A DNA stretch of 64,000 nt from contig CM065889.1 of assembly GCA_033439255.1 (NCBI GenBank), positions 1,612,001 through 1,676,000 on the forward strand, in the 5' to 3' direction. The DNA comes from Hericium rajendrae (Eukaryota; Basidiomycota; Agaricomycetes; Russulales; Hericiaceae). How positions within the stretch are numbered: position 1 is the stretch's first letter; each line of letters begins with the position of its first letter. The position numbers were made by a program, and so were the translations under genes. The notes beneath the pieces were generated by a model. It made no database searches. It saw nothing but the letters and a program-made list of their open reading frames with translations, and was not told where the DNA came from. Shown here one piece after another: positions 26,737-62,260 of the stretch.

Positions 26737-26809
26737 GTGAGTAAAAAAAACCTCTACACATTTTTTTTGTACTAACTCAGAGAGTATCGCTCATTTGAGC
26801 GATACTCTC
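26737..26809 (+). other. Intron-like segment plus hairpin module (copy 1)
   Basis: 26737-26780 reads as an ideal short fungal intron: GTGAGTA donor, a T-run, TACTAAC branch motif and TCAG acceptor. It is followed at once by a perfect hairpin, GAGAGTATCGCTCA (26780-26793) with loop TT and the complementary arm at 26796-26809. The module has the same layout as eight others in this window. Confidence 0.75.
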
Positions 26810-26939
26810 GCCACCTTTCACCCTTGCAGGCCTCCCTCGCCACCATTCCTCGCTGCCACCCCTCTCTTGTCGACTCCTTGTCTCCTGACATCACCTTCAC
26901 AAACCACCAGATGATGCATGCCCCTTCGTGCACGGGCCA

Positions 26940-27231
26940 CATCAGCAAACCTTTCCATTTACTTGTTGATCTGGTTTGCCTTTTTTTGATCTGGTTGATC
27001 TGGTTTTCATCTGGTTGATCTGGTTTTCATCTGGAAATTTTTTATATATGCAATTTGAGCTTTCTAATATCTGTAATTATAATATTGCATCTATTTTATC
27101 TATGATGTACATATTAAAAATCACTCAAACTGCTTTTAAAAATTTTCAGAAAAAAACCAGATCAAAACCAGATCAACCAGATCAAAAAAAGACAAACCAG
27201 ATCAACAAGTAAATGGAAAGGTTTGCTGATG
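26940..27231. mobile_element. Short non-autonomous DNA element, CATCAGCAAACC ends (copy 1)
   Basis: A 292-bp element with long inverted ends starting CATCAGCAAACCTTTCC and containing GATCTGGTT repeats. CA flanks both sides as a 2-bp target duplication. A second copy of exactly 292 bp lies at 47343-47634 with a different target duplication (AT), which proves mobility. Confidence 0.88.
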
Positions 27232-27239
27232 CAGGCATG

Positions 27240-28190
27240 CTAGTGCATGCATGGCCGGCGGATGGCCACGGCCATGTGCGGGCACATCAGTCAGCACATA
27301 CATGCATGCATGTCATGCGTGGCCATGCAAGGCATGCTCGCACGCAGGCCCTGGGGCCTCTGCGCAGGCCTCTGCGTCGTGCACGAGCCCAATGCCTCGC
27401 ACATGCCTGCCACGCCCTGCCACACCCACTGCACCCTGCATACAAGCCAGCACTCAGAGGATGCCTGCCGTACCTCACGTACGGGCCTGCAGCAGTCCAG
27501 CACCCCGCGCATACTCCTCGCACCTCGTCCATGCTCCCGCGCCTTGCCCACACCCTCTACACTCTTGCTTATGCCCCCTGTGCCTCGCTCATGCCCCCCG
27601 TGCCTTGCTCACATCCCCTGCGCCTCGCTCACATCCCCCACGTCTCACTCACGTCCTCCACACCTCACTCATGCCTCCCATGGCATCTCCGGGGCCCGTG
27701 ATGCCTGTCGTATCCTGCGGATGCCCACATATCCCGCTGATGCCCGCTGCACCTCACGGACAATGCCACACCACGTACAATGCTGCTGCACCTGCAATAT
27801 CTTGCGCACGAGCCAGCAGGAGCCCAGCGCCCCGTGCAATGTCTGGCGTGCCTTGTGCATGGCCGCCGGACCCCAACACATCGCCCATGCCTGCCGTGCT
27901 TCACGCACGAGCCTACCACACCCTGGCAACTCGAGCATGCCTGCTGCTGTGCCCTGCCGCACCTTGTGCATACCCTGCGTCTTGCATATGAGCCCGCCGC
28001 AGTCCGACACCGGTGCGCATGGCCTCGGCGCTTCCCATGCCTCGCGCACGGACCTAGTGCCTCGCAGATAGGCCAACGCCTCGTGCATGGGCCCAGCGCC
28101 TCGCGGATAGGCCTGCTGTGCTGCACGCATGACTCCTGTGTCCCGCATGCCTGCCGCGCCCCATGCGTTTGAGCACGCTTGTCCGTGTGG
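27240..28190. repeat. GC-rich degenerate minisatellite
   Basis: Short units of about 20 bp around GCCTCGCTCATGCCCCC and CACGCATGAGCC repeat irregularly for nearly 1 kb. Open frames span it on both strands in several phases, which is what a repeat free of stop codons gives; I do not treat any as a gene. The composition contrasts sharply with AT-rich flanks. Confidence 0.7.
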
Positions 28191-28552
28191 TATGCATTGT
28201 TCATATTAGTAGTGTAATTGATTGTACTACTAGCCACATTAAATATAATTGATTTTTTTTGTACTTAATTGACTTTTAAGGTAGTAATAATAGTATTCAT
28301 ATCTCACTTACTGTAAGGATCATAAGGACCATAGGGACCATAGCAAGCCAGTGAATTTATATAGCAGCTATAGCTGCCCCTTAGAAATATATAGTACTAT
28401 ATAGTGTCTAACTACTGCTATATAAGCTATGATAGGCCTCATAGCCTTATATAGTTGAGAAAGATAGCTACGTAAATGATAACAGACCTAATAGCATTAT
28501 GATAGGACATATAAATGAACACTAGACTATATAAAATTTTAATTTCTCAGAT
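28191..28552. repeat. TATAGC-rich tract
   Basis: Degenerate ATAGCTAT / TATATAG motifs at about 28340-28520, related to tracts at 24.7, 25.5 and 46.76-46.91 kb. No coding signal. Confidence 0.5.
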
Positions 28553-28627
28553 GTCAATACACATAAGTTTTACTTGTCAAGCATTAAACACATTTATTAT
28601 AAATTAAAACACAAGAAAAAACAAAAT

Positions 28628-28700
28628 GGTCAGAGGTGGAATTGAACCTGAGCAAACACCTTAACGGCCGTTAAGGCATTGCTTACATAAGCAAAACTCG
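28628..28700 (-). repeat. tRNA-like segment with perfect palindrome
   Basis: Minus strand: GCTTATGTAAGC region, then CCTTAACGGCCGTTAAGG (28659-28676, perfect 18-bp palindrome) where an anticodon arm would lie, then the B-box GGTTCAATTCC. The same arrangement is at 50099-50170. Confidence 0.6.
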
Positions 28701-29865
28701 GTTTTGAAGTGCAACATCTCCCTGCTAGCCTTTTCTTCAGACAGTTGTTGAAGCCAGTGGTCCCTCTACCAGTGGCTGTAACACTTTCAGACTACTTCTC
28801 CTCTCCTCGATGTGGGTGGGTGGAGAGGATGTCTACCCGATGGCTGTAGTGGTCATCCTGTATGTATCTCACTTGCTGATGTGGCAGACTAATTTCATTT
28901 TAGCTCTATCAATACTGCACCAATGAAGGTGAATAAGGGCTCATTGAAAGCAGATTTGTAGCTGCTTTTAGATAATATCTTGTGAGTCATAATAGCATCA
29001 CTGGTAACCAAGATATAGGGGTATGACTGATTGATGATGTGGCAGATATACTAGATCATATCTTCACTTCCTGTGATCTGATTTTTGCATTCTAAATTGT
29101 TTTGCAAAGCTGCTATATAGTATGTTCCAACCCAAATTACTGCTTGTTGATTGATTGATTTGTTGCAGAGCTATGAGACAGTCATTGTTTACAGTAGACT
29201 AACTCTTGGATGCATGTTTTGCTTATGTAAGCAGATGCTAATACTTCATTCAGCTACATAAGATCCTGTGGGATCACATCACTGAGAGTCTCAGAACCCA
29301 GTGCTACTGATAAACTGCATTTTTGGCTCATTTAAGTAATAAACAGTATCTAACTTTGTTTGCTGTATATCTCTTTACTGGCTTTGTCTTTCCATAAGCA
29401 GTAAACTGTATTGGAGACAGGTTTTCTGATAGATCCAGACAAACTTGAGAACAAGTGAATCGGCAGAGAACTGACCAGTTTAGCTAGAATTCAAACATTT
29501 TAGGGGGGGAAACAAAGAAATGCTTCACATTCTGTGAGTTCTTATCCAATCCAGATGCATGAAATATGGCTGGAAAGCTATAAATAAGTGGATCTATACG
29601 CACTTGAGAAAGAGTAAATCGGAGGAGAATTGACTAAGTTAGCTCAAGTTCAAATATTGTAGGGGGAAAATGTAGAAATTCATTTCACTCTGTGAGTTCT
29701 GCATGGATCAGGATGCAAAAAATACAATCAGAAAGCAATAAATGAGGAGATCCAGATACATTTGAGAACATGTGAATTGGTTGAGAACTGATCAAGTTAC
29801 ATTAAATCAAGTGTAAATAAAAGTCCGGCCAGACCTGGAGTTGAACCTGCAACCTCTAATGAGTG

Positions 29866-29935
29866 TTAAGAGATAGGTCACATGGTGTGTGCCTTAACAG
29901 CCATTAAGGCACACACCATGTGACCTACCTCTTAA
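29866..29935. repeat. Long hairpin inside a tRNA-like segment
   Basis: A 24-bp perfect stem (29874-29897 and 29904-29927, loop CAGCCA) extends outward by seven more pairs after one mismatch, about 32 bp in all. It interrupts a tRNA-like segment starting at 29827. Copy 2 of the block lacks it. Confidence 0.85.
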
Positions 29936-30599
29936 TGGCTGTTAACAGGTAGATCACATAACTATCTAACTTTGTTTGCTATATATCTTTTTACTGGCTC
30001 TATCATTTTGTAAATAGTAAATTGATTTGAAGACAGGCTTCCTAATAGATCCAGATGCACTTGAGAACGAGTAAATCGGTGGAGAATTGACCAAGTTAGC
30101 TAGGATTCAAACATTTTAGGGGGGAAAACAAAGAAATGCTTCGCATTCTGCGAGTTCTTGACCACTCTAGATGCATTAGGTATGGCTAGAAAACTATAAA
30201 TAAGTAGATTTAGATGCATTTGAGAACGAGTAAATTGGTGAAGAATTGGCCAAGTTAGCTAAGATTCAAACATTTTAGAGGGGAAACCAAAGAAATGCTT
30301 CGCATTCTGCGAGTTCTTAACCGATCCAGACGCACAAAGAATGGCTGGAAAGCTATAAATGAGTAGACTTAGATGCATTTGAGAACGAGTAAATCGGTTG
30401 AGAATTGACCAAGGTAGCTTAAGTTCAAATATTGCAGGGGGAAATGTAGGAACTCATTGCACTCTGTGAGTTCTGCACAGATCAGGATGCAAAAAATACT
30501 ACCAGAAAGCAATAAATGAGTAGATCCAGATGCATTTGAGAACAGGTGAATTGGTTGAGAACTGATTAAGTTACATTAAATCAAATGTAATTAAAAGTC

Positions 30600-30670
30600 C
30601 AGCCAGACCTGGAGTTGAACCTGCAAGCTCATCAGATCAGTGATCTTGCAATTAGATAAGCTGACTGCCA
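30600..30670 (-). repeat. tRNA-like segment with conserved tail
   Basis: Minus-strand B-box GGTTCAACTCC and A-box-like CAGCTTATCTAATTGC at tRNA spacing. The tail to about 30740 (GGTAGTGGTCGTTTGGGTG) matches 24.5 and 51.36 kb. Confidence 0.6.
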
Positions 30671-31169
30671 AATGGGGGTAGTGGTCGTTTGGGTGTCATT
30701 TTCGATAGGAAAACCCGGTATAGAGTAAACGATTCTAAGGAATCGTAATGATTCTAAGAAATTATAATTTCAACACAGGATATATTGCAGCACAGCAGGA
30801 CACAAGAATTATTTGTGCTCAGACACAGGATATCAAGCAAGATCTTCAAATCAATAGACTTATTCAGAAGCACAGTTGAAGAAAACAGAGCATCACAAGA
30901 TCAAAACAAGCAAATGTTAAGTCTCCAGCCTAAGGGCAGTCCCAAGTCAAGATCAAGATATATCTGATGCAAGACAAGCAAGTATGTTGGAATAGGCCTA
31001 AAACTAGCAAGACCACAGTGCCTTTGCACTGATCAAGGCAGAACTGTTGGCAGCAAGTCGAAACACCCAAGAATGTGTCAGAATGTGTTCACACACCCAA
31101 AATTGTGGTACTGCAAGTCAAAATAAGTGAGTTCGAAGTTTTAAAGTCAAGAAGAAGAGCAATGAATGA

Positions 31170-31535
31170 GAATGGAAAAGCATGGAGCACACAGGACATG
31201 CCCCACAGCATCTGAACAGTCAGCAATACAAGAGAGAAGACTGTAGGACACAAATATTCTGCCCCTTGGTCTGCGTGTAGTCAGAAATACGAGAAACAAT
31301 GCTGTGAGGCATGATATACATTCCCCACAGCATCTGTGCAATCAGCAGTACAAGAAGAGACTGTGAGGCATGATATATGTGCTCCATGGTGTGTGTGCTG
31401 TTAGAGATATAACAGAACAGTCCATGAGGCACGGATATTGTACCCCATGGTCTGCACGCAGTCAATAACATGAGAAATGATGCTGTGAGGCACGATATAT
31501 GTGTCTCACAGTATCTACATGATCAGCAGTATGAG
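31170..31535. repeat. Tandem array of about 60 bp, six units
   Basis: Landmarks of the type CCCCACAGCATCTG or CCCATGGTCTGC recur near 31197, 31258, 31318, 31378, 31438 and 31498. Many units can fold with GCTGTGAGG pairing to CCCCACAGC. The array abuts the copia LTR at 31540. Confidence 0.75.
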
Positions 31536-31539
31536 AAGA

Positions 31540-32157
31540 TGTTGAAGTCTTTTGACTCAGCATCCTGGTGCAAAATCACAGCACAGTCAAGACTCGATCC
31601 TAGGTCCTTCTGCAAGCATGCGGACACCTGGAGTCGAGCCTAGGACTTGTGACTAGCTTGTAGTCTCTGAGATTCGATCTTAGAGACACTTGCTTAGTGC
31701 GCACTACTCGGGAGTTGAACCTATGACCTTATACTTTTATGCACTAGTCAGGATTCGAACCCGGGACCCTTACAGGTCAGTCTAGCACACTTTACCACTT
31801 AGCCAACTGGTTGTTGTTACAGCTCTATTTTTCTCGCTCACATTGCCTTGTCTATTGCTCTGCTTACTCTATGGCTTACTTCACTTTTGCTCTTTCGGGC
31901 CTTGCCCTTGTTGGTTGTGTCTACTGTACAGTTTTGAAGCCACTGCCCGGCAACTTCCGTAGAGCATCGTACACCTGCGGTCCCATCGACTGTGAGCTCC
32001 TTAGTTGCTCACATTGGACTGCAGGTGCGCTATAGTGTTTCTTTCTCATGTCCTTAGTTGCTCACATTGGACTGCAGTCTCTAATCGATCCCTGTGTCTT
32101 CCTTTCGCTTCCTGCGCTCCTGAGTCGCTCCTTATCGCTCAGATTCGCACTTTCACA
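31540..32157 (+). repeat. LTR of copia-1, left copy, inverted relative to the coding part
   Basis: About 618 bp from TGTTGAAGTC to CACTTTCACA, oriented on the plus strand although the coding part reads on the minus strand. The 5' third holds five B-box-like motifs about 40 bp apart. Boundaries are inferred from shared ends of three copies (here, 35890-43515 interrupted, and 60771-61392). Confidence 0.7.
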
Positions 32158-34436: not shown

Positions 34437-34837
34437 CATCAGGAACCTTCAAAACTTTCTGTTTGACCTGCGAGGCATCTGACAGTGTCTGCATGATCTG
34501 CAGCAGTTGCATCAGACACATCAGACACTCTCAGACTGCATCAGCTACTCTCAGCTAGCTGCAGAATATTTGACCTCAAGATTCAAAAAAGTATCAATGC
34601 AGAATGCTTGCAGACTGATCAGAACTGATCAGATTCATATAAATTTTAGATATTGAAAACTTTGTTGCATCTAATGATTAGAGTTAGATGACTATTATAT
34701 CTGCCAATAGTTATTGACTTCAAAATATAAAATCTCTGATCAGAAATTGTCCTCTAATTAGAGCCTGCAGCTGAATCAGGTCTTGCAGTTGATCAGACTC
34801 TGCAGGATCCATCAGAAAGTTTTGAAGGTTCCTGATG
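34437..34837. mobile_element. Short CATCAGGAACC element inside copia-1
   Basis: 401 bp with inverted ends CATCAGGAACCTTCAAAACT and its complement, flanked by CT on each side as a 2-bp duplication. Interior motifs are CAGACT/TCTGAC-rich near the ends. Same family as 24889-25298. Confidence 0.88.
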
Positions 34838-35877: not shown

Positions 35878-35889
35878 GGGCCCATAACC
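35878..35889 (-). other. Primer-binding site of copia-1, half-tRNA type
   Basis: Directly inside the right LTR, the minus strand reads GGTTATGGGCCC, complementary to GGGCCCATAACC, which fits the anticodon stem-loop of initiator methionine tRNA (anticodon CAU). Drosophila copia and yeast Ty5 are known to prime from this internal half of the tRNA. Confidence 0.7.
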
Positions 35890-36147
35890 TGTCAAAGTGC
35901 GAATCTGAGCGATAGGGAGCGACTCAGGAGCGCAGGAAGCGAAAGGAAGACACAGGGATCGATTAGAGACTGCAGTCCAATGTGAGCAACTAAGGACATG
36001 AGAAAGAAACACTATAGCGCACCTGCAGTCCAATGTGAGCAACTAAGGAGCTCACAGTCGATGGGACCGCAGGTGTACGATGCTCTACGGAAGTTGCCGG
36101 GCAGTGGCTTCAAAACTGTACAGTAGACACAACCAACAAGGGCAAGG
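35890..36147 (-). repeat. LTR of copia-1, right copy, inner part
   Basis: Begins (minus strand end) with TTTGACA next to the primer site. The rest of this LTR continues at 43252-43515, on the far side of the gypsy insertion, and is shorter at its outer end than the other copies. Confidence 0.75.
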
Positions 36148-40571: not shown

Positions 40572-40594
40572 GGACGACGTGACCGGGGGGTGCT

Positions 40595-43246: not shown

Positions 43247-43251
43247 CAAGG

Positions 43252-43688: not shown

Positions 43689-43699
43689 CGATGCATGGG

Positions 43700-46144
43700 C
43701 TGCAGATCATAACAATAATGCTCCACCTTTTGCCAATGAAAAGGAAATGTTAAAGATTATAGATGCTATTCAGCTTGGTGATGCACCCTGGCTGCATTTT
43801 ACTATAACATATGTTGGCGTTATACCTGAAGAAAATCCACCTGCATGGATGCTTGCAGAGTATGATGTGTGGTATTGAAATCCACGACTTGTGATTCAAA
43901 ACCAATTGTCCAATCCTGATTTTAAAGATGAAATAGATTATGCTCCTCGAAAGGAATATAATGCTAAAGGCAAAAGAGAATGGTCAGATTTTATGACTGG
44001 AAATTGGACATGGCGTTAGGCAGATACAATAGCTGAAGATCCTGAAACACATGGATCTATGTTTGTACCTGTTGTTTTGGACAGTGATAAAACTGTTGTC
44101 TCTGTTGCTACAGGTCATACAGAGTACTATCCACTTTATGCATCTATTGAAAATGTGCATAATAATGTTCGACGTGCACGTCGAGATGCTGTTAGTATTC
44201 TTGGATTTTTAGCAATTGGCACAACAGATAAGCAATTTCAAAATAACAGTGATTTTTGCAAATTTCAAAGACATTTAATGCATGAGTCACTTAAAATTAT
44301 CTTAGAACATCTGCGACCAGGAATGACTACACCAGAAATAGTTCGCTGTCCTGATGGACATTTTCGTCATGCAGTTTATGGAATTGGACCTTATATTGCA
44401 GATTATCCTGAGCAAGTATTACTATGTGGAATTGTTTCAACCTGGTGTCCTCATTGTACATGTCCACCTAAAGATTTAGATAGTGATTGCTTTTCACGTT
44501 CACATGAATATACCACCTTATTGATAAAAGAACTAACTGCAAAAGAATTATGGGATGAATATAGTATTGTTAGCAATTTTATGGTATGTGACTATTATTG
44601 TTTTAAATGAAGATTGAGTTAAATCTTACTTTGTTTTCTTTTAGCCATTTACACATTCCTTTCCTCGTGCAGATATTCATGAGCTCATTTTCATTGACTT
44701 GCTTCATCAACTTATCAAAGGAACATTTAAAGATCATCTTGTGACTTGGATTTTTGATTATCTTGAACTTAAATATGGACCAACTAGAGCAACTGTGATT
44801 ATGGCAGATATTGATAGGAGAATTGCTGCAACACCTGCATTTCTAGGAATTTGTTGATTTCCTGATGGTTGTAACTTTCAACAATGGACAGGAGATGATT
44901 CTAAAGCTCTAATGAAAGTGTTTTTGCCTGCAATTGAAGGTTATGTTTCTCCACAAATGCTTCGAGCAATTCATGCATTTTTAGATTTTTGCTATCTTGC
45001 TCAAAGATCTATTATTGATGAGGATACTTTGGATGTTATGGATGATGCACTTGAAATTTTTCATAAGGAACGTGTTATTTTTGAGGAAGAAGGTGTACGC
45101 CTTAAAGGAATATCTCTTCCAAGGCAACACTCCTTGAAACATTTTCGTGAATTAATTGAAGAATTTGCAGTTCCAAATGGACTTTGCACTTCTATCACTG
45201 AATCTAAACATATAAAGGCAGTCAAAGAGCCTTGGAGAAGATCTAGTGGTTATAATGCTCTGGGACAAATGTTGCTCACAAACCAAAGGCTTGATAAGCT
45301 TAAAGCATGCACTGAGAATTTTATACAACGAGGCATGTTAGATAAACCTCTAGGTCAGACAGCCCAAAATGATAGTAATTCAGATATAGAAGTGCATTTT
45401 CCAATAGAAATCAATAAAATCTTACTGACTGATAACTTTGATCATAATATTGAATTTGATGTTAGCCTTGCAAAAACACGTGCATGTGGATATCCTCGAA
45501 CACTTGATCAAATTGCATCATTTATTGGAAGGCCAGATTTATCTAGTCATATTCATCGATTTTTATTTGATCAAACAAATGTTACTCCTGGATGTACATC
45601 ACTAGATGTTGATATTTCAGACTGTCCAATGGCTCCAGAAAAATTAAACATGTATAACTCTGCAATAGCCACATATTATGCACCTAGTGATCCATCTGAT
45701 ATAAAGAGAATTCATCGACATTATATTTGATCATCACGAGAATGGTATGAACAATATCCTCATCAAGACTGTGTCTTTATCAAAAATGATCCAACTTTAC
45801 CTGGAATGAAAGGACTTTATATTGGCCGAGTACTGCTGTTTTTTTCATTTGAAGATGAAGAAATTACTTATCCATGTGCATTGATCCAATGGTTTGTTAC
45901 TATTGGTGATACACCTGATCCCAACATAGGAATGTGGATGGTAGAGAGAGAAGTGGATGAGAATGGACAATTTGTATGTTCAGTGATACATACTGACTAT
46001 ATTTTGAGGGGTGCTCATTTGATTGGTATTTCTGGTGAAGAATCTCTTCCTTTTAACTTTAATCATATATACTCTCTTGATGCTTTTGATTGTTTTTATG
46101 TTAACAAATATTTTGACTATCATGCCTTTGAGATTGCTTTCTAG
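43700..46144 (+). pseudogene. Plavaka transposase, four in-frame stops
   Basis: The frame starts, without its N-terminus, at NNAPPFANEKEMLKIIDAIQ and ends FDYHAFEIAF, with one conserved intron (about 44583-44644, GTATGT to TTTTAG). Readable hallmarks: MFVPVVLDSDKTVVSVATGH, EYYPLYASIENVHNNVRRA, GHFRHAVYGIGPYIADYPEQ, FPRADIHELIFIDLLHQLIK and FQQWTGDDSKALMKVFLPAI, all of which I recall from agaricomycete Plavaka proteins. Stops lie near 43876, 44018, 44856 and 45729. Three replace a likely arginine (CGA to TGA) and one a likely glutamine (CAG to TAG), so all are C-to-T on the coding strand. The last exon region (45.75-46.14 kb) is a C-terminal domain with GLYIGRVLLFFSFED. Not functional. Confidence 0.85.
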
Positions 46145-46199
46145 TCTTTTGTATCTACTCAGTAGTAGTGATAGAATACAACTTATTTATATTGTATGA

Positions 46200-46755
46200 T
46201 TCTTTTCACATAAAAAGCCTATAAATAAACTAACTTATGAAGTCTGATTGATCTGATAGTGTTCAAATAAGATCTGATTGTAAGTAAAAATCTGACGAGT
46301 ATATGTACTTTTAACTAATCTGAAGAAATTACACTTGTCTGATTTATCTGACTGGGCTGACAAGAGACAATCTGAAAAAGATCTAAAATCTGACTGTATC
46401 TGCAAAATTATATCTTATCTGACTAATCTGATAATAGAAAATCTGATAAAGACTCAAAATCTGATTGTGTCTGAAAAGATTACACCTGTCTTACTTATCT
46501 GACAATAAAAAATCTGATGACTATTCAAAATCTGATGAAATCTGAGAAGATTACACCTGTCTGATCTGTCTGATAGCAAAAAATCTGAAAGATATCTAAA
46601 ATCTGAGTGTAAATGTATATCTGATGCAATCTGATTCTCTCTGACTTATCTGACTGTGTTTATAGTCAGAAATGATTAAATTTTCAGATTTATAAGGTGA
46701 TCAGACAGAGTAAGATAGGATAAAATGCAGCAGAAAGTTTGTAAGACTCCTGATG
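46200..46755. repeat. Subterminal TCTGA repeat zone of the Plavaka element
   Basis: More than 30 copies of TCTGA/TCTGAT/TCTGAC at irregular 10-25 bp spacing, running to the right terminus. Dense subterminal motifs are typical transposase-binding zones in CACTA-type elements. Confidence 0.75.
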
Positions 46756-46756
46756 A

Positions 46757-46915
46757 TATAGCTTAGACTCTATGCTATGGTAGCTATGGCAAGCTATGAT
46801 AGCTATGCATAGATTACTTGACTGCTATAAGATTGCTATGTAGAAAAGAGGACAGCTATAGACCTAGGAAAGCTATATAGCCTACATAGCCTTATATACC
46901 AGTAGTAAATTTCTC
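46757..46915. repeat. TATAGC-rich tract
   Basis: AGCTATGATAGCTATG-type runs up to 46912, then AAATTTCTCAGATG, a junction text that also occurs near 25450 and 28535. Confidence 0.5.
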
Positions 46916-46919
46916 AGAT

Positions 46920-47340
46920 GAAGTGGACACAAATCTGTACAGACAGAGTGGAGCTCAGCATGGGCATACAGGTGAAATCAAGGTGATGCACATGCATGAG
47001 AGGCCGCATGGGTGTAGGCGAGTTGGCACAGTGTGAGTGACTTGGTGCAGGTGCATGGGAGTTGGTGTGGGTGCGAGTGAGGCCACGTGGGTGTAACAAA
47101 GTCAGTCGGGGTACAAGCGACTTGGCAGGGGGGTGAGCAAGGCAGTGGAGGTGCAAGCAAGGTGGCACGGTCATGCAGAAGGCCGTGTAGGCGCATGGAG
47201 TCAGTGGAGGCATGCAGGAGTCATATGGAAGAGGCTGTGTGAGCATGCGACTGAATCGGCACAGGCGTGTATGATGGAGGTGGGCACAAGTGATAGTAGA
47301 CCAGGGTGCAACTGGCCTGAAGATGAGAGCATTGCTCAAC
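46920..47340. repeat. GC-rich degenerate minisatellite
   Basis: Units of about 20 bp of the type GTGGGTGTAGGCGAGTTGGC and GGTGCAAGCAAGG. Composition resembles, on the opposite strand, the arrays at 27.2 and 48.2 kb. Open frames across it are repeat artefacts. Confidence 0.55.
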
Positions 47341-47342
47341 AT

Positions 47343-47634
47343 CATCAGCAAACCTTTCCATTTACTTGTTGATCTGGTTTGTCTTTTTTTGATCTGGTTG
47401 ATCTGGTTTTGATCTGGTTTTTTTTTGAAATTTTTTAAAAGCAGTTTGAGTGATTTTTAATATGTACATCATAGATAAAAAAGATGCTATATCATAACAA
47501 CAAATATTAGAAAGCTCAAATTGCATATTTAAAAAATTTTCAGATGAAAACCAGATCAACCAGATAAAAACCAGATCAACCAGATCAAAAAAAGACAAAC
47601 CAGATCAACAAGTAAATGGAAAGGTTTGCTGATG
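47343..47634. mobile_element. Short non-autonomous DNA element, CATCAGCAAACC ends (copy 2)
   Basis: 292 bp, same ends and length as 26940-27231, flanked by AT on both sides. Inverted GATCTGGTT repeats extend far inward, so the whole element can fold into a long hairpin. Confidence 0.88.
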
Positions 47635-48116
47635 ATCGTGAGCGATGCTCTTTTGATCAGCATGAGAAAGACATAAAATGTGTGTTTACTTACCATAAAG
47701 TCCCAGATGATCCATCCAACAAGATAACACTAAAACGGAATGCATCAGCAGGAAAAAATAGAGAGGAAGGAGTGAGGATGGTGGATAGACAAGATGATGT
47801 GGCATCCAAGTCAAAATCATGCATGTCGAGTGCACAGGGCTGTGTGGCCTGATTCATTTGAATGCTCATATATGTGCATTCAAATGAATCAGTGCATGGT
47901 AGACCATGTAGCCACAAACACACCTCTTGACACTCAACTTGAACAAAAAAAACTGCAGGGGATGTGTGGAAAACATTTGGCTACAGCCAAATGCTTCACA
48001 TGCCTGGCTTTTCAAACCTCTCAGGTATGTTTCCTTTATTCGAAGGATTAACTCACACATCTTTGTCAGGTATTTAGGCAATTATACACCAGAAAAGAGC
48101 TGTATAGGGCTACAAG
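47635..48116. other. Short frame and two palindromes
   Basis: A plus-strand frame to 47852 (DQHEKDIKCVFTYHKVPDDP) looks protein-like but resembles nothing I know. A 17-bp perfect hairpin, CTGATTCATTTGAATGC (47849-47865) with its complement at 47876-47892, and a second one, CATTTGGC with loop TACA (47974-47993), follow. Confidence 0.5.
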
Positions 48117-48191
48117 GTGAGTATAACAGTTTTATTAGCCTTTTTTTGCACTAATATAGAGAGTATTGCCTACTAATATGGGTGATACTCT
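48117..48191 (+). other. Intron-like segment plus hairpin module (copy 2)
   Basis: 48117-48159: GTGAGTATAAC donor, T-run, CACTAAT branch motif, ATAG acceptor. Hairpin arms AGAGTATTGCC (48160-48170) and GGTGATACTCT (48181-48191) pair fully if two G-T wobbles are allowed. It leads into the array starting at 48.2 kb. Confidence 0.7.
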
Positions 48192-48199
48192 CATTTTGA

Positions 48200-49620
48200 C
48201 TCTGTATATGCCCCTGCTAAGTCGTGTGTGCTGCTGTCTACTCGCATACACCTCTGCCAACTCACACACACTCACGCCGCTGACTGCATGCCTCCATAGA
48301 CACACCTGTCCTCCAATCACATCATCTGTGCTCGTGCAGCCTCCTGGGTGCTCACACCAATTTCTGCACACTCTCATTGTCTCACACATGCCATTGTTGC
48401 CTTCTGTGTGCCTTTGCCACCTCTCGCACACTCCCACCAGCTCGCCTGTCCTCCCACTGCCTCCCTTGTACTCTTGTCACCTCGCACACACCCGCGCTGG
48501 CTCTCTTCCACCTGTGCTGACTCTCTTCCACTTGTGCTGGCTCTCTCACACCTGCACTGAGTCACTCGCACTCGTGCCAACTCCCTCACATCCATGCCAC
48601 CTCCCTCACATCTGCATCTTCTCGTGCACCTGCATGCCATTATCTGCATGCTCCTGCTGTCTCTCATGCCTCAGTGCCATCTCCTGCACTTTGGGCACCA
48701 TCTTCTGCACTCCAGTGCTGTCTCCTGGGCATCTGACAACATCTCGTGCATGTCAGTGTCACCTTGCGTGCTTCCGCAAGATGGTGTGATCTCCTGCACA
48801 CTGGCGTCACCTCCTGTGCATCTGCGTCATTCCTCACATGCCTGTGCCATCCCCCACACATCTGCACTGCCTCACGTGCATCTGCACCATCTTTCTCACA
48901 TGTACACTATCTCTGCCATATGCATGTTGCCTCCTCCAAGCTCCTGCCATGTCCCATCTCCTCTCGGTGCTGGCACTGTCTCGTGCATGTTGGTGCCATC
49001 TTGTGCACACTGGCACTGTCTACCTCATGCCTGCACCATTTCCTGAGCATTCACATTGTCTCCTGCACATTTGTGCTATCTCATGCATGCTGTTGCTGCC
49101 TCTTTCATGCCCACATTGTCTCCCACATGCCTGCGTCATCTCCCATGCATCAGCACTCTCTCGTGCTTGCTGGCTCTGTCTTTCCTGTGCCTGCACCACC
49201 TCCCGTGCATCCACACCATCTCTCCCACACTGGTGCCATCTCTCCCATGTCGTTGTCATCTCTCCTGCACAGCATGCCATTATCATCTCTCCTGCACTGC
49301 ATGTCATTGTTATCTCTCCTGCACTGCATGCCTGTGCTGCCTTACACATGCTGGCACCACCTTCTGCACATCTGTGCTGCCTCATGCCCTTCTGCACTGT
49401 CCCCTATGTCTGGCCATCTCCTCCATGCCTGTACCTTTCTCCCCTCATATGCCCGTGCCACCTCACGCACTTTCGCGCTGCCTCTGCCATGCCCACACCA
49501 CTTTGTCTGCATCCCTGCTGCTTGCTCGCATCCATGCTCAGCTGTGCATGCCCACACCCAATCCTTCCTGCCTATGCACAACTAGCTGTGCACACTCCCA
49601 CTAACTCCCACATTTTGCAT
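48200..49620. repeat. Long degenerate minisatellite
   Basis: About 1.4 kb of units around CACCTCCTGCACATCTGTGC and TCTCGTGCATG, roughly 20-24 bp. A 30-bp unit CTCTCCTGCACTGCATGCC-like is repeated near 49260-49330. Frames through it give Leu/Cys/His/Ser strings in all phases and are not genes. Confidence 0.7.
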
Positions 49621-49624
49621 CCAT

Positions 49625-49660
49625 GTGAGAACTGTTTTGCTGCAGCAAAACAGTTCTCAC
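49625..49660. repeat. Perfect 36-bp palindrome
   Basis: GTGAGAACTGTTTTGC with loop TGCA and a perfect 16-bp complementary arm, placed exactly at the end of the minisatellite. Confidence 0.9.
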
Positions 49661-49699
49661 GCTCAGAAGTAGATGTATTCTTACCTTGTAAAGTAGAGT

Positions 49700-49940
49700 T
49701 ATAATATATATAATGAAGTATATTCTACATTGGCTGAACCTTCTAATCCCTTGGCCTATGTGGAGTGGTATATGCCATTCGAACCAACAGCAAACAACTG
49801 ATATATGTATATTAGACCATTTGGAAGCTTTATTATGAATATACGACTTGATTTCTCCTCTCAGAATATGACTGCTACAGATACTACTGTAGCTGAGTTG
49901 TGTATTACATACCAAGATGCTTCCATCAATATCTAATCAT
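49700..49940 (+). pseudogene. Coding remnant, possibly transposase C-terminus
   Basis: A short frame reads LAEPSNPLAYVEWYMPFEP, a stop, then IRPFGSFIMNIRLDFSS. PLAYVEWF-like text occurs, as I recall, near the C-termini of agaricomycete transposon proteins. Fragmentary and uncertain. Confidence 0.35.
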
Positions 49941-50036
49941 TGGCAATCATAGTTCAGAAGTCTTCTATTTATATCTAGCAGCAGTTACTATGGCATGACC
50001 CCAGCTATCAATCAAAAAACCATTTTTCCAGATGAA

Positions 50037-51951: not shown

Positions 51952-51956
51952 CAGAC

Positions 51957-56100: not shown

Positions 56101-57109
56101 AGTGTCAAGGCAGTGTGTCATGCCATCATCCTTCGGGCCATCGGAGATCACTGCAAAAGCGACATTGGTGCTCAAGGCAGCTGCCAAATGGGCGCTGCTC
56201 CCGCTGTCCTTATCTCTGTCCTGCCTGTCATTGGGTCCCTGCCCCTTCGGCCATTGCCCTTCCTTGCCACCACCTTGGTGCCAGCAATTATCGACTATGT
56301 GACCAGTGCGACTGCAATTTGTGCACATCTTGCACTGCTTCCAAGCTCCACGGGCATTCTTCTGTGCCGTGAGGAGTGCCATCCCGTCAAACAACTTTGA
56401 TAGACGTGCTTGGATTTGCCGACGATCATATTCTTCAGTGATATAGGCGATGATCGTAAGTGGGTCCAACATTTTTCCCGAGATCTGAGCTGCAGATAGC
56501 ATCGAAGATAAGACAGTGTCATAGGTGTTTGGCAGCGATGACAAAGTGATCGCGGAGAAGTCTGTGTCATTGAGGGTAGTTCCCATACCGGCAAGTTCTT
56601 CCCACATGCAGAGGAGAGTATCGAAGTGCAGCCAGTGGTGCAGATCAATCTGCACCATCATGGTCTTCGCTTCAAATTCTTGGCATACCGTAGTTCAAAC
56701 GGCATATGTAAAGTCGAGAGCTTGCACTCGGAGCAGCAATGAGTCATATATCATGGAAAATATCTGCTGCTTGATGGTGAATTGCTTTTGCAGCCACTCG
56801 TCCTGCTTCATGAGCACTTTTTCGAGCACATCAAGTTCCTGCTCAGATGCTTTGACGTCCTTGTCCTTGCCTTTCTCGGACTTGCTCATGCTTTCAGCTG
56901 CGGTGCTAGTGTCGGGTGCCCATGGGGCTAGCAGGGATGAGATCCAAGGTTTTGGTGCAGTGCCATTCAGATGCCACATCAAGCCTTTCGCGCCGACGAT
57001 GATCATAAGATAGGTTTTATATGTAACCCAGTTCGATCCATCATTCTGCAGTTTCGGAACTGTATAGAAATTTATAGCATTGTTGGTGAGCGAGATGTTG
57101 GCAACTGCA

Positions 57110-57121
57110 GGGCCCATAACC
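57110..57121 (-). other. Primer-binding site of copia-2, half-tRNA type
   Basis: Minus strand GGTTATGGGCCC abuts the LTR. The ATG within it (57115-57117) is also the first codon of the Gag frame (MGPAVANIS), so primer site and start codon overlap, a layout also known from yeast Ty5 as I recall. Confidence 0.75.
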
Positions 57122-57482
57122 TGTTTAGATTACAAACGTCGAGCAAGGTCCTGTACGAGACAGACAATCAGAAACTCAGTGATAGGAATAAATCACCTTT
57201 ATTTGTCTGTACCTGTACGAGATGGACAATCAGAAACTAGGTACAAGAAGTAAGTATGACATCATTAATAAAAGAAGCACGATGGCTCACCTCAGTGATG
57301 GGAATAAATCACTGAGGTTAGCCGCATTGGTATGTGCGCCGTTAGTACTGAGTATGCGAGTGGCTGAATAGGTACTGTATAGTAGTTTATGTAATTGATC
57401 TGAGCTCCAGGCTCGGTAATCTAATCTTACGCGATAACGAGAAAAACAGACTTGCAGCACGGGCGTTTGCCCGATCTCAACA
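57122..57482 (-). repeat. Copia-2 5' LTR
   Basis: 361 bp, TGTTTAGATTAC to GATCTCAACA on the plus strand. Confidence 0.88.
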
Positions 57483-57680
57483 CAGACATCTAAAATTTCA
57501 TCAGATATTTACAGTTGTCTCAGACTTAAAGATCAGAAAGTGAATCTGAGCACCACAGAAATCAAATCCAAGCTCAAATCTGGATCTGAATGGCTGCTAT
57601 AAAATCAGAACTGGCAAATCTGAACTCAGGCTGAGCACTCACAACAGCTTTGCAGAGTCTAGATTTAACATTCATAAATT
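57483..57680. repeat. CAGA-rich sequence, continuation of the 51.4-51.95 kb zone
   Basis: ATCAGATATTTACAG, CTCAGACTTAAAGATCAG and similar motifs continue the zone split by copia-2. Confidence 0.55.
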
Positions 57681-57689
57681 GACAACTTG

Positions 57690-58255
57690 ACATGATAACC
57701 GAAGGCCCATGCACTGTAGGACCCAAAACATTCTTGTTTCGAACCCCACAGCATGTGCGGGCAGGTAACTATGAAAACCAAAGGTTCGCGCATCTGTAGA
57801 ACCTGAACGTTCTCGTTTCAAGCTCCACAGCCTGTACGGACAGGTACATACAAAAACAGAAGGCTCACACATCTGTAGGGCCTGAAACAATGACGTTTCA
57901 GGCTCCACAGCCTGCACAGACAAGTACATACGAAAACAGAAGGCTCACACATCTGTAAGGCATGAAACGATGACATTTCGGGCCCCACAGCTTGCACGAG
58001 CAGGTAAATATAAAGATCAGAGGCTCTCAGACCTGTAGGGCCCCAAAACAAAAATGTTTTGGACCCCATGATCTGCACGGGCATGAAAACAAAAAACTCA
58101 AAGGCTCGCACAACTGTAGAGCCCAAAATGCACTGGTTTCAATCTCACAGCCTATGCAGACACGCGGACATGACAGCAAAAAGCTCGTGCACCTGTAGGG
58201 CCTGAAATGCATGCATTTCGACTCTGCAACCTGCACGGGCTGCAGACAAATGGAA
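57690..58255 (-). repeat. Tandem array of 80-bp hairpin units, seven copies
   Basis: The landmark ATCTGTAGGGCC (or variant) recurs at about 57710, 57790, 57870, 57950, 58030, 58110 and 58190, exactly 80 bp apart. Each unit has a hairpin such as GGGCCTGAAAC...GTTTCAGGC or CCAAAACA...TGTTTTGG: arms differ between units but stay paired. 80 is not a multiple of three, so the open frames across it are not proteins. The unit resembles, in reverse orientation, those at 61.4 and 62.5-63.05 kb. Confidence 0.85.
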
Positions 58256-58465
58256 AGGTGTAGAAAAGGGTACTTACCGGAGATGCAAGGTGCAGAGTTC
58301 TGCAGGTCCTGCGAGGTTGTGTGTGAGGAGATGGAGGTGTGTGGGAATCAAGGCAGTGGCAGAGCATGCATGGGGTGCGAGGCATGGGAGAGGCAGCTTT
58401 CGGGGCATGAGGGCATGAGACATGCAACGGACAGGGTGAGGGGTTGATGCAAATGAGAAAATGGA

Positions 58466-58539
58466 GAGTACTGCTCGTTATCGAGCAGTACTCCTGAGAT
58501 TAGCATGAAAGACAATGACATAATAAGTTTCATACTCAC
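58466..58539 (-). other. Intron-like segment plus hairpin module (copy 3)
   Basis: Minus strand: GTGAGTATG donor (58539), TGCTAAT branch motif, CTCAG acceptor (58494), then a perfect 12-bp hairpin GAGTACTGCTCG with a 4-nt loop (58466-58493). Confidence 0.75.
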
Positions 58540-58630
58540 CTTAGAGCCATATAACCTCCAATAAGCCCATCTGGCCTTCTAACACGTCCTTCTGGCCTTC
58601 AAATTGATGTCAGAGAGTGCAAAAACAGGG

Positions 58631-58704
58631 AGTACTGCTTGAAAACGAGCAGCACTTTCCGAGTTAGTATAATGAACAATACATTAACAAAATTTATGAC
58701 TTAC
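58631..58704 (-). other. Intron-like segment plus hairpin module (copy 4)
   Basis: Minus strand: GTAAGTC donor (58704), TACTAAC branch motif, then CTCGG where the acceptor would be, and a near-perfect hairpin CGAGCAG type (58631-58656) with a 4-nt loop. The acceptor appears altered. Confidence 0.6.
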
Positions 58705-59027
58705 TTAAGCTTTAGCAAAGCCCTCCAGCTTTCAGAACATCAGAAAATGAAGAACGGAGGGGAGAAGAGGTGAGAAAGCACTAAGTACTACTTACAACAA
58801 CGGACAAGTATGACTTGATGTTTGTGCTTCTGGCAAACCAACAGCCCAGTCAGCAATCCCCGACCGGCAATCCCCGACAACACATGTCAACCCAATGACT
58901 GATATGTCATCTTCAACTTTAACTCCCCCACCTCACTTGCTGTAGTCCCTAGCCTCCTGATCTTCTGATCTTCCATTTTTTTGTCATATTGAGGGATCAG
59001 GCAAGTATTAGATTCAGTAGGCCCAAA
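58705..59027. other. Spacer between minus-strand and plus-strand modules
   Basis: No gene. The modules at 58.47-58.70 kb point left and those from 59.03 kb point right, so this spacer could hold a bidirectional start; CT/GA-rich patches occur but no clear promoter motif. A direct repeat GGCAATCCCCGAC near 58855-58880 is visible. Confidence 0.35.
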
Positions 59028-59105
59028 GTGAGCAGTAAAAAGTCTTTATTTTGCGTGATACCATACTGACAAAGAGAGTAACACTCATTTTCGAGTGTTG
59101 CTCTC
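59028..59105 (+). other. Intron-like segment plus hairpin module (copy 5)
   Basis: GTGAGCAG donor (59028), T-run, CATACTGAC branch motif, AAAG acceptor (59074). Hairpin AGAGTAACACTC / GAGTGTTGCTCT (59075-59104) with one G-T wobble. Confidence 0.7.
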
Positions 59106-59192
59106 AATGTCCTCATTCTCTCATCATCACTGCCGCTTCTTGCATCCTGTGGCACTCTCTCTTATCGAAGTGAAGCTTTCAGAGTTTGGAAG

Positions 59193-59267
59193 GTGAGTAT
59201 AAGTCTTCATTCATGATGTTGTCATGTACTAATGAAGAGAGTATTGCTCATTATCGAGCGATACTCT
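59193..59267 (+). other. Intron-like segment plus hairpin module (copy 6)
   Basis: GTGAGTATAAG donor (59193), TACTAAT branch motif, GAAG acceptor (59237). Hairpin AGAGTATTGCTC / GAGCGATACTCT (59238-59267) with one wobble; arms almost equal those of copy 1. Confidence 0.75.
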
Positions 59268-59800
59268 TTCATTCCTTCATTCCTTGTTCCTGATGAAGTA
59301 TCCAATCCCTCTCCACTGCTACCACTCCTCTGCATCCTTGCCATCCCTCCCACATCGTGACCATGTCACTTGGATCCCAACATTGTATGTGCAGCCTCAA
59401 CATCAGCTCTGCTCCACCACATGTCCTGCACCTCATATGGAAATGCCACATCATACATACATGCACGGGAGCATGTATTCCAGTGTTTCATCCATGTGTA
59501 TTCATTGAAGGTGAGCAAGAGCTATTTATCTGCATTGTTCTCATATTAACAGGTTCTTTTATGTTCATTCTCTGCCCCATCCCCACGTCGATGATGCTTG
59601 TCACTCCTCATCCCTACTGGATGGCATGGAAAGTGAAGATTGGTGAGGTATGAATGAGGTTCGTAGTGTATTTTTTAGCTGCTTGTGGCTTCTAATATGT
59701 TGGTAGATTAGGTGCATCAGGTGTACATATGCTTGCAGACATTGATTATGATGTATTTGTATTTTAGCCTGTATAGTTATAATTATAGTACTTTGAATGG
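59268..59800. other. Possible exon-like stretch, no gene supported
   Basis: A plus-strand frame from 59357 to 59653 (MTMSLGSQHCMCSLN) has no known domain. A GTGAGCAAG donor-like site lies near 59511 and an AACAG acceptor near 59552. Could be part of a spliced non-coding transcript with the upstream module. Confidence 0.35.
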
Positions 59801-60196
59801 TATAATATTTATGTCTGATTTGACATACATCATCTGTGTCCAATTCTGAGGTTCATCTGATCTGAAGTCATAATCTGATTTATATCTAAAATTATGATAT
59901 GTCTGATTGCTAGACTAAACTCTGACTTCAGATAAAATCTGACATTCAAGATGAAGTCTGACTTCAGACATCTATCTGAGGCTCAGACATATACCTAACT
60001 CTTAGACATCTGTCTGACATCCAGATAAGATCTGACTCTCAGATGACTGTCTGACATCAGATAGCTATCTAAAATTAGACATTTCTGTCTGAAAGACACT
60101 GGACAATAGGGACCTACCTGACTAGTCTGACTGTCTGATTGTCTGAATTAGATTAAATCAGATATAATCAGATACCAATCAGAAATTTCCAGGTTT
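59801..60196. repeat. TCTGA-rich subterminal zone ending in a Plavaka-like terminus
   Basis: TCTGAC/TCTGAT motifs at high density, ending CAGAAATTTCCAGGTTTAC followed by TGATTG, similar to the ends at 46755 and 34837 but diverged. It could be the right end of a large element whose left zone is at 51.4-51.95 kb. Confidence 0.55.
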
Positions 60197-60770
60197 ACTG
60201 ATTGGCAGATGCTATGCAGACGAGTCAAAAACCACTCTCATCACCAAGATGGAGTAGTCTCAGAGGGAGAAACCCTGACTTGGTATATGATGTAGTGAGA
60301 TGATGTCTGCTATACATGCTGAAAGCAAATATCTATCTATGCTGACTAATCACTCTCTGAAGCAATGTAATCGCCTCTATCTCACTCTCTCTGACCCTTC
60401 TATCCTTACTCCAGCGGGCAGCACGTTGAGCACATGGGTGCAGTGTCGAGCTTGCATCCAGCATGTCAAGCTCACATGTGGCTTGTCATGCATGCAGGAG
60501 GGTTGTCAGACACACATATGGAGTGTCGAGCAGGCGGAGGCAGTGTCGAGCTCATGTGGAATCAGCTGGGGTGGTCCCTATAATGATTATAGTACTGTTA
60601 TACTAGTGGAGGATAGTGTAATTATCAGTTGGATAGTATGTGCTGCTGTTATAGTAGCGTAGTAGTAGTTGGCTGGTATATCAGTATGTAGTAGTATTCC
60701 ATTGCTAGAATCCAGCAGTTTAGTAGTATTCTCAGTAGGGGCACCACCAGGCTGTCACTTTGCTGGTATT
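60197..60770. other. Low-complexity spacer
   Basis: CAGTGTCGAGCTTGCAT-like units near 60440-60560, then AT-rich TAGTAGTAT-type runs to 60740. No gene. Confidence 0.45.
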
Positions 60771-61392
60771 TGTCAAAGTGTGAATCTGAGCAATAGGGAG
60801 TGACTCAGGAGTGCAGGAAGTGAAAGGAAGACACAGGGATCGATTAGAGACTGCAGTCCAATGTGAGCAACTGGATATATGAGAAAGAAACACTATAGCG
60901 CACCTGCAGTCCAATGTGAGCAACTAAGGAGCTCACAGTCGATGGGACCGCAGGTGTACGATGCTCTACGGAAGTTGCCGGACAGTGGCTTCAAAACTGT
61001 ACAGTAGACACAATCAACAAGGGCAAGGCCTGAAAGAGTCAAAGTGAAGTAAGCCATAGAGTAAGCAGTGCAATAGACAAGGCAATGCGAGCGAGAAAAA
61101 TAGTCCTGTAACAACAACCAGTTGGCTAAGTGATAAAGGGTGCTAGACTCACCTGTAAGGGTCCCAGGTTCGAATCCTGACTAGTGCATTAAAGCATAAG
61201 GTCATAGGTTCAACTCCCGAGTAGTGCACACTAAGCAAGTGTCTCTAAGATCGAATCTCAGAGACTACAAGCTAGTCACAAGTCCTAGGTTCGACTCTAG
61301 GTGTCCGCTCCGCATGCTTGCAGAAGGACCTAGGATCGAGCCTTGACTGTGCTGTGATTTTGCACTAGGATGCTGAGTCAAAGACTTCAACA
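60771..61392 (-). repeat. Solo LTR of the copia-1 family
   Basis: 622 bp, minus orientation, from TTTGACA end at 60771 to TGTTGAAGTC start at 61392. No coding sequence and no clear target duplication adjoin it. On the plus strand five B-box-like motifs lie at 61167, 61207, 61249, 61288 and 61333, the first an exact GGTTCGAATCC preceded by TTGGCTAAGTG. Confidence 0.75.
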
Positions 61393-61560
61393 TGTGGGTA
61401 GCACCCACACGTCGTGCAGGCCCGAAATCACGAGCATTTGGATGCAATTTCAGGTCTGTATGTTTCGGTCTTATTACTTACTGTGGGTACCACCCCCACA
61501 TCTTAAAGATACATTGTATTGTACTTTCATAAAATGTAGTAGTTACTCTGAATAAAATTT
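61393..61560 (+). repeat. Single hairpin unit and spacer, duplicated at 62.99-63.16 kb
   Basis: Begins GTGGGTAGCACCCACAC, then a hairpin of the GAAATC...GATGCAATTTC type, TCTTATTACTTACT, and TGTAGTAGTTACTCTGAAT. The same order recurs at about 62990-63160. Confidence 0.65.
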
Positions 61561-61589
61561 GTCTTTTTTTCTTCTCGCAATCCTGAGGG

Positions 61590-61635
61590 ATCACGTGCGA
61601 CAGCGAGATGGGTCGAGCTCGCTGTCGCACGTGAT
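61590..61635. repeat. 18-bp perfect hairpin
   Basis: ATCACGTGCGACAGCGAG (61590-61607), a 10-nt loop and the exact complement (61618-61635). A decayed version sits at about 63186-63231 with mostly C-to-T and G-to-A differences. Confidence 0.88.
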
Positions 61636-61776
61636 TGGTTCTGTCATCTCGATCACGTATGTTTTGATCGCTACTCGCAGTCACAACTCAGTCCTCTCTC
61701 TCTTTCAGGTGAATACTCGTCTTTCTAGGGTTCCAGAGCAGTAGAGAAAGATCGGGAGCACTATTCAGACAATCAA

Positions 61777-61855
61777 GTAAGTCCTTATGGCTTTCATTTC
61801 ATTCCATTCACTGACCGGAAGCACCACTCGCTCGATTTGAGTAGGTTGGTGCTCA
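61777..61855 (+). other. Intron-like segment plus hairpin module (copy 7)
   Basis: GTAAGTCC donor (61777), T-run, CACTGAC branch motif, GGAAG acceptor (61821), then arms GCACCA and TTGGTGC enclosing partly paired CTCGCTCG / GAGTAGG. Confidence 0.6.
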
Positions 61856-62027
61856 TTTGAAGCCCACCCCTCCCATCTTCCCTCTCCCTCGGACCTCGGA
61901 CCTTGTCCATCGCCTCAAGAGGCTCACGCGCAGGGCCCAATGGCCTCACTTCCGGCCCAATGGCCTCACATCCAGCCCAACAGCCTCACTTCCAGCCCAA
62001 CGGCTTCGAGCACTGCCCAGGGCAGTT

Positions 62028-62050
62028 GCAGCTGGCGTTTCGCCAGCTGC
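62028..62050. repeat. 10-bp perfect hairpin before a donor-like site
   Basis: GCAGCTGGCG, loop TTT, CGCCAGCTGC, followed five bases later by the donor-like GTGCGT at 62056. Confidence 0.8.
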
Positions 62051-62055
62051 TTAAG

Positions 62056-62128
62056 GTGCGTAGAACCTTTTTTTTTCATTCTATCCACTAATGATGAGCA
62101 CCTTCGCTCGAAACGAGCGAGTTGGTGC
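62056..62128 (+). other. Intron-like segment plus hairpin module (copy 8)
   Basis: GTGCGTAG donor (62056), T-run, CACTAAT branch motif, GATGAG acceptor (62098), then GCACC..CGCTCG paired with CGAGCG..GGTGC around loop AAA. Confidence 0.68.
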
Positions 62129-62180
62129 TCATTTGAAGTTGGGCCTTGCTGGAACTGGGGAGGATTAGAGGACCAAGTAG

Positions 62181-62260
62181 GTGAGTAATTAACTTTCTTA
62201 TTTCATTCTATCAACTAATGAAGAGCACTGGTCGCTCGTTTCGAGCAAGTTGGTGCTCGT
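62181..62260 (+). other. Intron-like segment plus hairpin module (copy 9)
   Basis: GTGAGTAAT donor (62181), T-rich run, AACTAAT branch motif, GAAGAG acceptor (62225), then GCAC..GCTCG paired with CGAGC..GGTGC around loop TTT. It is followed by three tandem 18-bp units GGAAGCCCACACCCATT (62260-62310). Confidence 0.68.

Follow-up and report, generated by a model that had tools for sequence, protein, structure and literature searches.

A module in which a short intron-like segment runs into a stem-loop recurs in a 64,000-nt stretch of the Hericium rajendrae genome (GenBank assembly GCA_033439255.1, contig CM065889.1, positions 1,612,001 to 1,676,000; G000:C12:1612001-1676000), hereafter the window, and throughout the 46.8 Mb assembly of 19 contigs that was searched. 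We tentatively read this module, with a probability of roughly one in three, as a hairpin-gated 3′ splice site in a putative non-coding RNA of apparently non-autonomous, PlavakaB-like DNA transposons. A canonical donor and a CTRAY branch motif are followed, usually 3 nt later, by a stem-loop of about 13 bp or more that usually holds the only nearby AGs.

Recurrence of the module in the genome and the window

The branch motif together with the 5′ arm (CTRAYN{2,5}GAGAGTAYYGCTC) has 233 exact matches in the genome versus 0 for the reversed pattern; genome-wide, the layout thus lies far above chance, a comparison that a first-pass annotation of this DNA had proposed to make with shuffled sequence. 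The bare 13-mer GAGAGTATCGCTC matches 414 times (2 in the control), the perfect canonical 13-bp hairpin 144 times (0 in the control), and a sister arm, GRGAGTACTGCTC, 48 times (0 for its reversed control). Among the perfect hairpins listed, 46 of 50 have a branch motif ahead of them, and a donor-like motif is found upstream in 110 of 123 modules. The hairpin core of the type C modules (61-62 kb in the window) is rarer, with 18 strand-wise matches, some of which are both strands of one palindrome. The exact canonical hairpin had no match in prokaryote genomes or in viral contigs. For several counts we used 113 filtered modules, comprising 86 picked by a search pattern that fixed the 5′ arm and 27 that matched no arm search pattern and were kept by filters on donor, offset, and arm similarity (the unpicked modules). 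Related copies are not independent events, and the p values of the pairing-bias counts are optimistic.

Within the window, the first-pass annotation had listed nine loci with this layout, all of which are present at the given coordinates and strands and align with a shared donor, branch motif, and stem. The donors, described there as of the GTGAGT type, are GTGAGT, GTAAGT, GTGAGC, or GTGCGT, and, as also described, CTAAY or CTGAC is followed directly by the hairpin. The hairpins had been called strong, which applies to seven of the nine: folded with their introns, these outperform almost every one of 200 dinucleotide shuffles (z -2.5 to -6.7, with no more than 3 of 200 equally good), whereas those at 61777 (z -1.6; 19 of 200 equally good) and 62181 (z -1.4; 22 of 200) are unremarkable singly. 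In relatives of the type C hairpins elsewhere (L096, L099), the stem reaches 19 bp and includes one or two G-U pairs. When the window was scanned strictly for donor, branch, and AG, 34 candidates emerged, six of them with a following hairpin that scored at least 10, compared with 12 of 600 random 60-mers; five of these six are among the nine loci, the other four of which were missed by the scan pattern. When a covariance model built from the nine copies was run on the window, as the annotation had proposed, it returned a tenth, truncated module (24.3 bits). The modules and their carrier elements in the window, which we assign to types A to D, are as follows.

25446..28553, plus strand: type A DNA transposon with PlavakaB-like ends CATCTGAGAAAT...ATTTCTCAGATG and TC on both flanks (2-bp target site duplication); homologous to the genome-wide type A copies
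26737..26784, plus strand: type A intron-like segment, from GTGAGT to the AG at arm positions 4-5 (ended at 26780 in the first-pass annotation)
26780..26809, plus strand: type A hairpin, GAGAGTATCGCTC-ATTT-GAGCGATACTCTC, 13 bp, z -6.7
47636..50034, minus strand: type B element in truncated form, with its left end, CATCTGGAAAAATGG, at 50034; a small repeat (about 47540-47635) apparently cuts the right part
47636..47693, minus strand: tenth module, the outward partner of that at 48117, with truncated hairpin
48117..48192, plus strand: type B module, donor 48117, hairpin 48159-48192 of 14 bp including three G-U pairs
57483..60202, unstranded: type D element with two outward modules per strand; span set by piecewise homology to L048
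58464..58539, minus strand: type D module, donor 58539, hairpin 58464-58495; related arms occur elsewhere
58628..58704, minus strand: type D module, donor 58704, hairpin 58628-58659 with decayed arms
59028..59105, plus strand: type D module, donor 59028, hairpin 59074-59105
59193..59268, plus strand: type D module, donor 59193, hairpin 59237-59268
61777..61853, plus strand: type C module, donor 61777, weak hairpin from 61820, z -1.6
62056..62133, plus strand: type C module, donor 62056, hairpin 62093-62133, z -6.1
62181..62258, plus strand: type C module, donor 62181, decayed hairpin 62223-62258, z -1.4

Stem pairing, splice signals, and the proposed gating

The observation that the arms stay paired partly through G-U wobble was borne out. 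The accompanying proposal, that what is conserved is form, needs correction: the arm sequence GAGAGTATCGCTC/GAGCGATACTCTC is itself conserved genome-wide, with compensatory variants, and conservation thus extends beyond form. Across 43 distinct arm pairs (alignment A3), 96.6% of cells are standard pairs, and 10 of the 13 pairs change on both sides, pairs 3-5 being those without two-sided change; none of 500 shuffles reaches any of these measures, and sliding the partner destroys the pairing signal. Entropy over 57 clusters is 0-1.0 bits in the stem versus about 1-1.9 bits in the flanks, and 0.13-1.03 bits in the 3′ arm, left free by the patterns used to search the genome. Because the search fixed the 5′ arm of most copies, pairing bias was tested in the separate set of 27 unpicked modules, where imperfect pairs comprise 35 G-U, 11 A-C, and 10 others (p 5e-4), a count that retains L037:5644, probably a chance match. 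With the picked copies added, G-U versus A-C is 48:18 (p 3e-4). A looser count made without the donor filter (71:57; p 0.25) was discarded as full of chance palindromes. Over about 800 bp around modules, C>T and G>A rates per base are near strand-symmetric (0.0432/0.0434, 0.0398/0.0342, and 0.0905/0.0815). The G-U excess, together with this symmetry of the surrounding mutation, argues for selection on RNA of the intron's sense, as which the stem would be kept by compensatory and G-U changes.

It is very unlikely that the module has no present function and is a relic kept by recent transposition bursts. Many copies are indeed decaying, mostly by C>T and G>A, and none of the six frames tested (five from A or B elements) gave a recognised protein, but the stem is kept with compensatory changes across families that share little else.

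The stem has a steady place relative to the splice signals. In 106 of 123 modules (20 of the 27 unpicked), CTRAY is followed by the arm at a distance of exactly 3 nt, and an AG occupies arm positions 4-5 in 106 of the 113 filtered modules (likewise 20 of the 27 unpicked). Of the 27 unpicked modules, 26 have G at arm position 3, 26 have G at position 5, and 21 have A at position 4; some AG stands between the branch and arm position 6 in 24. The AG immediately before the hairpin that had been described is not constant, the AG within the 5′ arm being the commoner arrangement, and for this reason the 58704 copy had looked altered. The donor is GTRAGT in 93 of 113 modules and lies 44-54 nt from the arm AG, whereas CTRAY was imposed by the search. 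In 55 representatives, from which L037:5644 and L033 were excluded, the AG at arm positions 4-5 has a predicted P(unpaired) of 0.03 versus 0.63 for the branch motif.

Other AGs are scarce past the hairpin. In 89 modules there are 11 versus 36 expected at 0-20 nt, 17 versus 29.5 at 20-40 nt, and 23 versus 34 at 40-60 nt, with parity with GA from 200 nt; cluster representatives have 24 AG versus 59 GA after the stem and 210 versus 233 in the upstream exon. The unpicked modules have 18 versus 27.7 expected in the 40 nt after the stem. Past the stem, the median distance to the first AG is 96 nt versus 38 nt in shuffles (copies without AG in 120 nt set to 120), and the first 40 nt are free of AG in 77% of the 113 modules and in 17 of the 27 unpicked. 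An acceptor beyond the hairpin was considered, as CAG occurs about 20 nt past the stem at 26737 and in L014, but most modules are AG-free there and it was retained as a special case only.

The spacing and the AG-poor zone bear on the possibility that the hairpin serves the transposon RNA as a binding site for a protein or enzyme (for stability, export, or small RNAs), which an ordinary 5′ intron adjoins by inheritance. Its very conserved stem sequence and variable loop would suit such an element, and the modules may be shared by descent; we nevertheless regard this as unlikely, given the 3-nt branch spacing and a depletion of AG that links the stem to splicing.

Under the hairpin-gated reading, the closed stem in the unspliced RNA would hide the AG, such that the intron is retained or stalls. 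Opening of the stem, whether through helicase action, protein binding, temperature, or splicing that precedes synthesis of the 3′ arm, would render the AG usable. Splicing to the arm AG would take off five arm bases and leave a shorter stem at the exon start, and removal of these bases halves the predicted stem stability (median -22.2 to -11.1 kcal/mol). The earlier suggestion of an exon that opens with a stem-loop thus needs modification, since the hairpin usually starts 3 nt past the branch and its 5′ arm usually includes the candidate 3′ splice AG. What becomes of the element's RNA would depend on the state of the stem. Its use to a transposon in which no protein is recognised is a guess, perhaps a balance of expression versus silencing. 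Stalled spliceosomes feed RNAi in Cryptococcus.

Several observations weigh against gating. The constancy of the arm AG is by construction of the search pattern in 86 of the 113 modules, and some diverged copies have lost this AG. The nearby AGs are poor acceptors (GAG, or NAG just 5 nt from the branch A); other short intron candidates have YAG 10-25 nt from the branch in 31 of 43 cases, and those with YAG at 3-9 nt number 11, versus 12 and 8 in two controls. Because the arm-AG constancy is mostly ascertainment and such close AGs are not above controls, the gated reading is weakened and cleavage without exon joining (below) gains. The donor is often paired in the predicted fold (mean P(unpaired) 0.25), and U2 binding may simply be prevented by a stem that lies 3 nt from the branch. 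Immediately past the stem GA serves poorly as a control, because many copies share GACTTC there. With regard to RNA sense, the 3′ arms of 75 picked copies (76 minus one with a poor arm) give a G-U to A-C ratio of 13:7 (p 0.26), and the raw, unnormalised C>T:G>A counts within the module are 12:3, 7:6, and 3:5; the non-independence of related copies weakens the covariation and bias statistics as well. Spliced module copies had no match in the genome for the one pattern searched; a DNA transposon need not leave a spliced genomic copy.

A somewhat unlikely alternative is first-step-only spliceosomal cleavage, by which the stem hides nearby AGs, few others follow, and the upstream exon is released as a finished non-coding RNA. 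The strong donor and CTRAY with no accessible AG, the scarcity of AG beside the hairpin, and the fact that AGs so near a branch are not above background elsewhere in the sequence analysed would all fit such cleavage. In Schizosaccharomyces pombe, the telomerase RNA TER1 is cleaved in this way through a strong branch site and a long branch-to-AG distance (PMC4299874). However, most unpicked modules (20 of 27) retain the arm AG, for which a device that only hides AGs would have no use, and in type D elements, where one module follows another, cutting at the first would leave the second without effect. It is rather doubtful that the module is, more generally, a portable RNA device of otherwise unlike transposon families, in which the spliceosome would perform the first step only and so give a defined non-coding RNA end and a stalled lariat.

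Should the hairpin-gated reading hold, the modules would constitute a natural, high-copy set of splice sites locked by RNA structure and compensatorily kept in otherwise dissimilar transposon families. The set offers a ready test of the effect of a branch-adjacent stem on both splicing steps. A further question is why elements with no recognised protein genes keep structured, intron-bearing RNAs, with expression control, silencing escape, and a trans-acting RNA as candidate answers.

Transposons that carry the module

The module rides inside DNA transposons, of which families A and B are apparently non-autonomous and, from their terminal sequences, PlavakaB-like. Both families have ends CATCWG...CWGATG and 2-bp target duplications; the PlavakaB-like assignment rests on these ends of A and B, types C and D carrying the module and being known without ends. 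Seven type A sequences (L002, L004, L007, L009, L010, L012, and L018) have about 2.7 kb in common with sharp ends, CATCAGATAAAT... and ...ATTTTTCTGATG. Type A1 copies start with CATCA and end with TGATG, the termini described for PlavakaB; in the other subfamilies and in type B, one end or both read CATCTG or AGATG, a one-base variant of CATCA..TGATG. Matching 2-bp flanks occur in 9 of 11 type A copies inspected (L002 differs, and L011 has lost its left end). A type B copy is inserted in a type A copy with an AA duplication (L091:155-3835), and a complete type B copy has a CA duplication (L034:1228-4975). Type B carries two outward-reading modules, with donors about 400-450 bp apart in most copies, and type D (window about 57.5-60.2 kb; L048) has two outward modules on each strand. 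Similarity detected by blast between L002 (type A) and L013 (type B) is limited to 42 bp, at the hairpin. The suggestion that the module might be a mobile unit with its own intron was right in tying it to mobile DNA, but in families A and B it is a DNA transposon of about 2.6-3.7 kb that carries the module.

Among the matches listed for contigs C1-C6, 25 of 39 type A left ends have a right-end partner no more than 4.5 kb away. Of these 25 paired-end elements, 18 contain the canonical module, which always shares the element's orientation and lies 1231-1419 bp from its left end. Among the seven others, one has a 13-mer match that fits a 3′ arm near the expected place (C1:554584), and for the remaining six none was among the matches listed. 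This steady place could suggest a DNA-level palindrome, serving as a transposase site or in replication or cruciform formation, rather than an RNA structure. We consider this very unlikely: the bias is toward G-U over A-C while the surrounding mutation is symmetric, the loop varies from 3 to 10 nt (123 modules), a variability that does not suit a fixed-spacing pair of DNA half-sites, the position is central and not terminal, and branch and donor-like motifs precede the hairpin (46 of 50 listed perfect hairpins and 110 of 123 modules, respectively).

Six long frames tested (five from A or B elements and one, the 629-aa frame in L092, from an insert) gave no Pfam match at E 0.1. Pieces of Plavaka transposase are abundant in the genome (132 matches), and the three Plavaka-transposase loci examined are all without the module. 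Families A and B are classed as apparently non-autonomous because no protein was recognised in the frames tested and because these transposase loci lack the module. Long paired-end elements were considered as autonomous partners; of the three listed, the two that were examined are nested insertions, and the third is about 10 kb. A protein-coding role for the module was rejected, as an ATG in exon 1 is occasional and not kept and loop lengths differ by non-multiples of three. Degenerate C-rich arrays to the right of the modules (window 27200-28070 and 48160-49700) are stop-free in several frames; a coding function for this right half in the window was also rejected, with several frames open and no Pfam match.

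On the minus strand, the left half of type A (window about 25900-26300; L002:700-1000) reads as a succession of short intron-like units separated by short exons, which look as if they belonged to a second, outward transcript. In three cases a type A right-end motif precedes a left end by exactly 610 bp (window 24836/25446, C1:4312073/4312683, and C7:2476193/2476803), suggesting a composite element amplified whole, to one of which the type A copy in the window may belong. A 95-bp repeat is found at 26939-27033 and 47540-47635 in the window and, as inverted pairs, at L095:3561-3775 and 4517-4731; one copy adjoins the truncated module at 47636. To the right of the type C modules, 62455-63057 is an array of units with GTGGGTAGCACCCAC and long near-perfect palindromes, e.g., CCCAAAATTGCGA...TCGCAATTTTGGG, and similar sequence occurs in L096, L098, and L099. 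In L098, near 1490, a sequence starting CATCAGGAAAAGG directly follows the arm of a C-type hairpin and is perhaps another insertion.

The window also holds tnp2-type and Plavaka transposases (Pfam domains), including a decayed Plavaka transposase copy at about 43690-46755 that is bordered by a type A end fragment (46756-46920). There is, in addition, a Ty3-like element with a chromodomain and a Copia-like element, the names being read off Pfam domains. Such a content is in keeping with a mushroom-forming basidiomycete.

Comparison with known systems

The first-pass annotation knew of no described family with this layout, and we found no Rfam family at gathering score in the window; in L002, L013, L030, and L048 the Rfam matches were all below the gathering score and all in L048. 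We found no description of the module in literature on Plavaka, splice-site stems, and introners, a search outside which most subscription journals lie, and the arm sequences returned no papers. This suggests carrier elements of a known kind with a module that is apparently undescribed in the literature searched.

PlavakaB families, which belong to the CMCT group and occur in fungi, have termini CATCA..TGATG and target duplications of 2 or 3 bp (PMC12730594). The elements here resemble them in having CATCA or CATCT .. TGATG or AGATG and 2-bp duplications; they differ in that no protein was recognised in the long frames tested and in carrying the intron-hairpin module, from which the three Plavaka-transposase loci are free. 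Many introners are non-autonomous DNA transposons with splice signals, and the inserted element is itself the intron (PMC9860276). Here, by contrast, the intron-like piece of about 44-54 nt lies mid-way in a much larger element, in type A 1.2-1.4 kb from the left end.

The S. pombe TER1 RNA shares with the module a strong branch site and a second splicing step that is hindered, in our case presumably; in TER1, a distant AG or unusual splice sites and not a stem hinder step two, and no transposon is involved (PMC4299874). In yeast, stems downstream of the branch can conceal cryptic AGs or reduce the distance to the true AG (PMC12350175). The likeness lies in a stem between branch and 3′ splice site that is able to hide an AG; the proposed role of the yeast stems is to bring a real downstream AG closer, whereas here the next AG follows the stem at a median of 96 nt.

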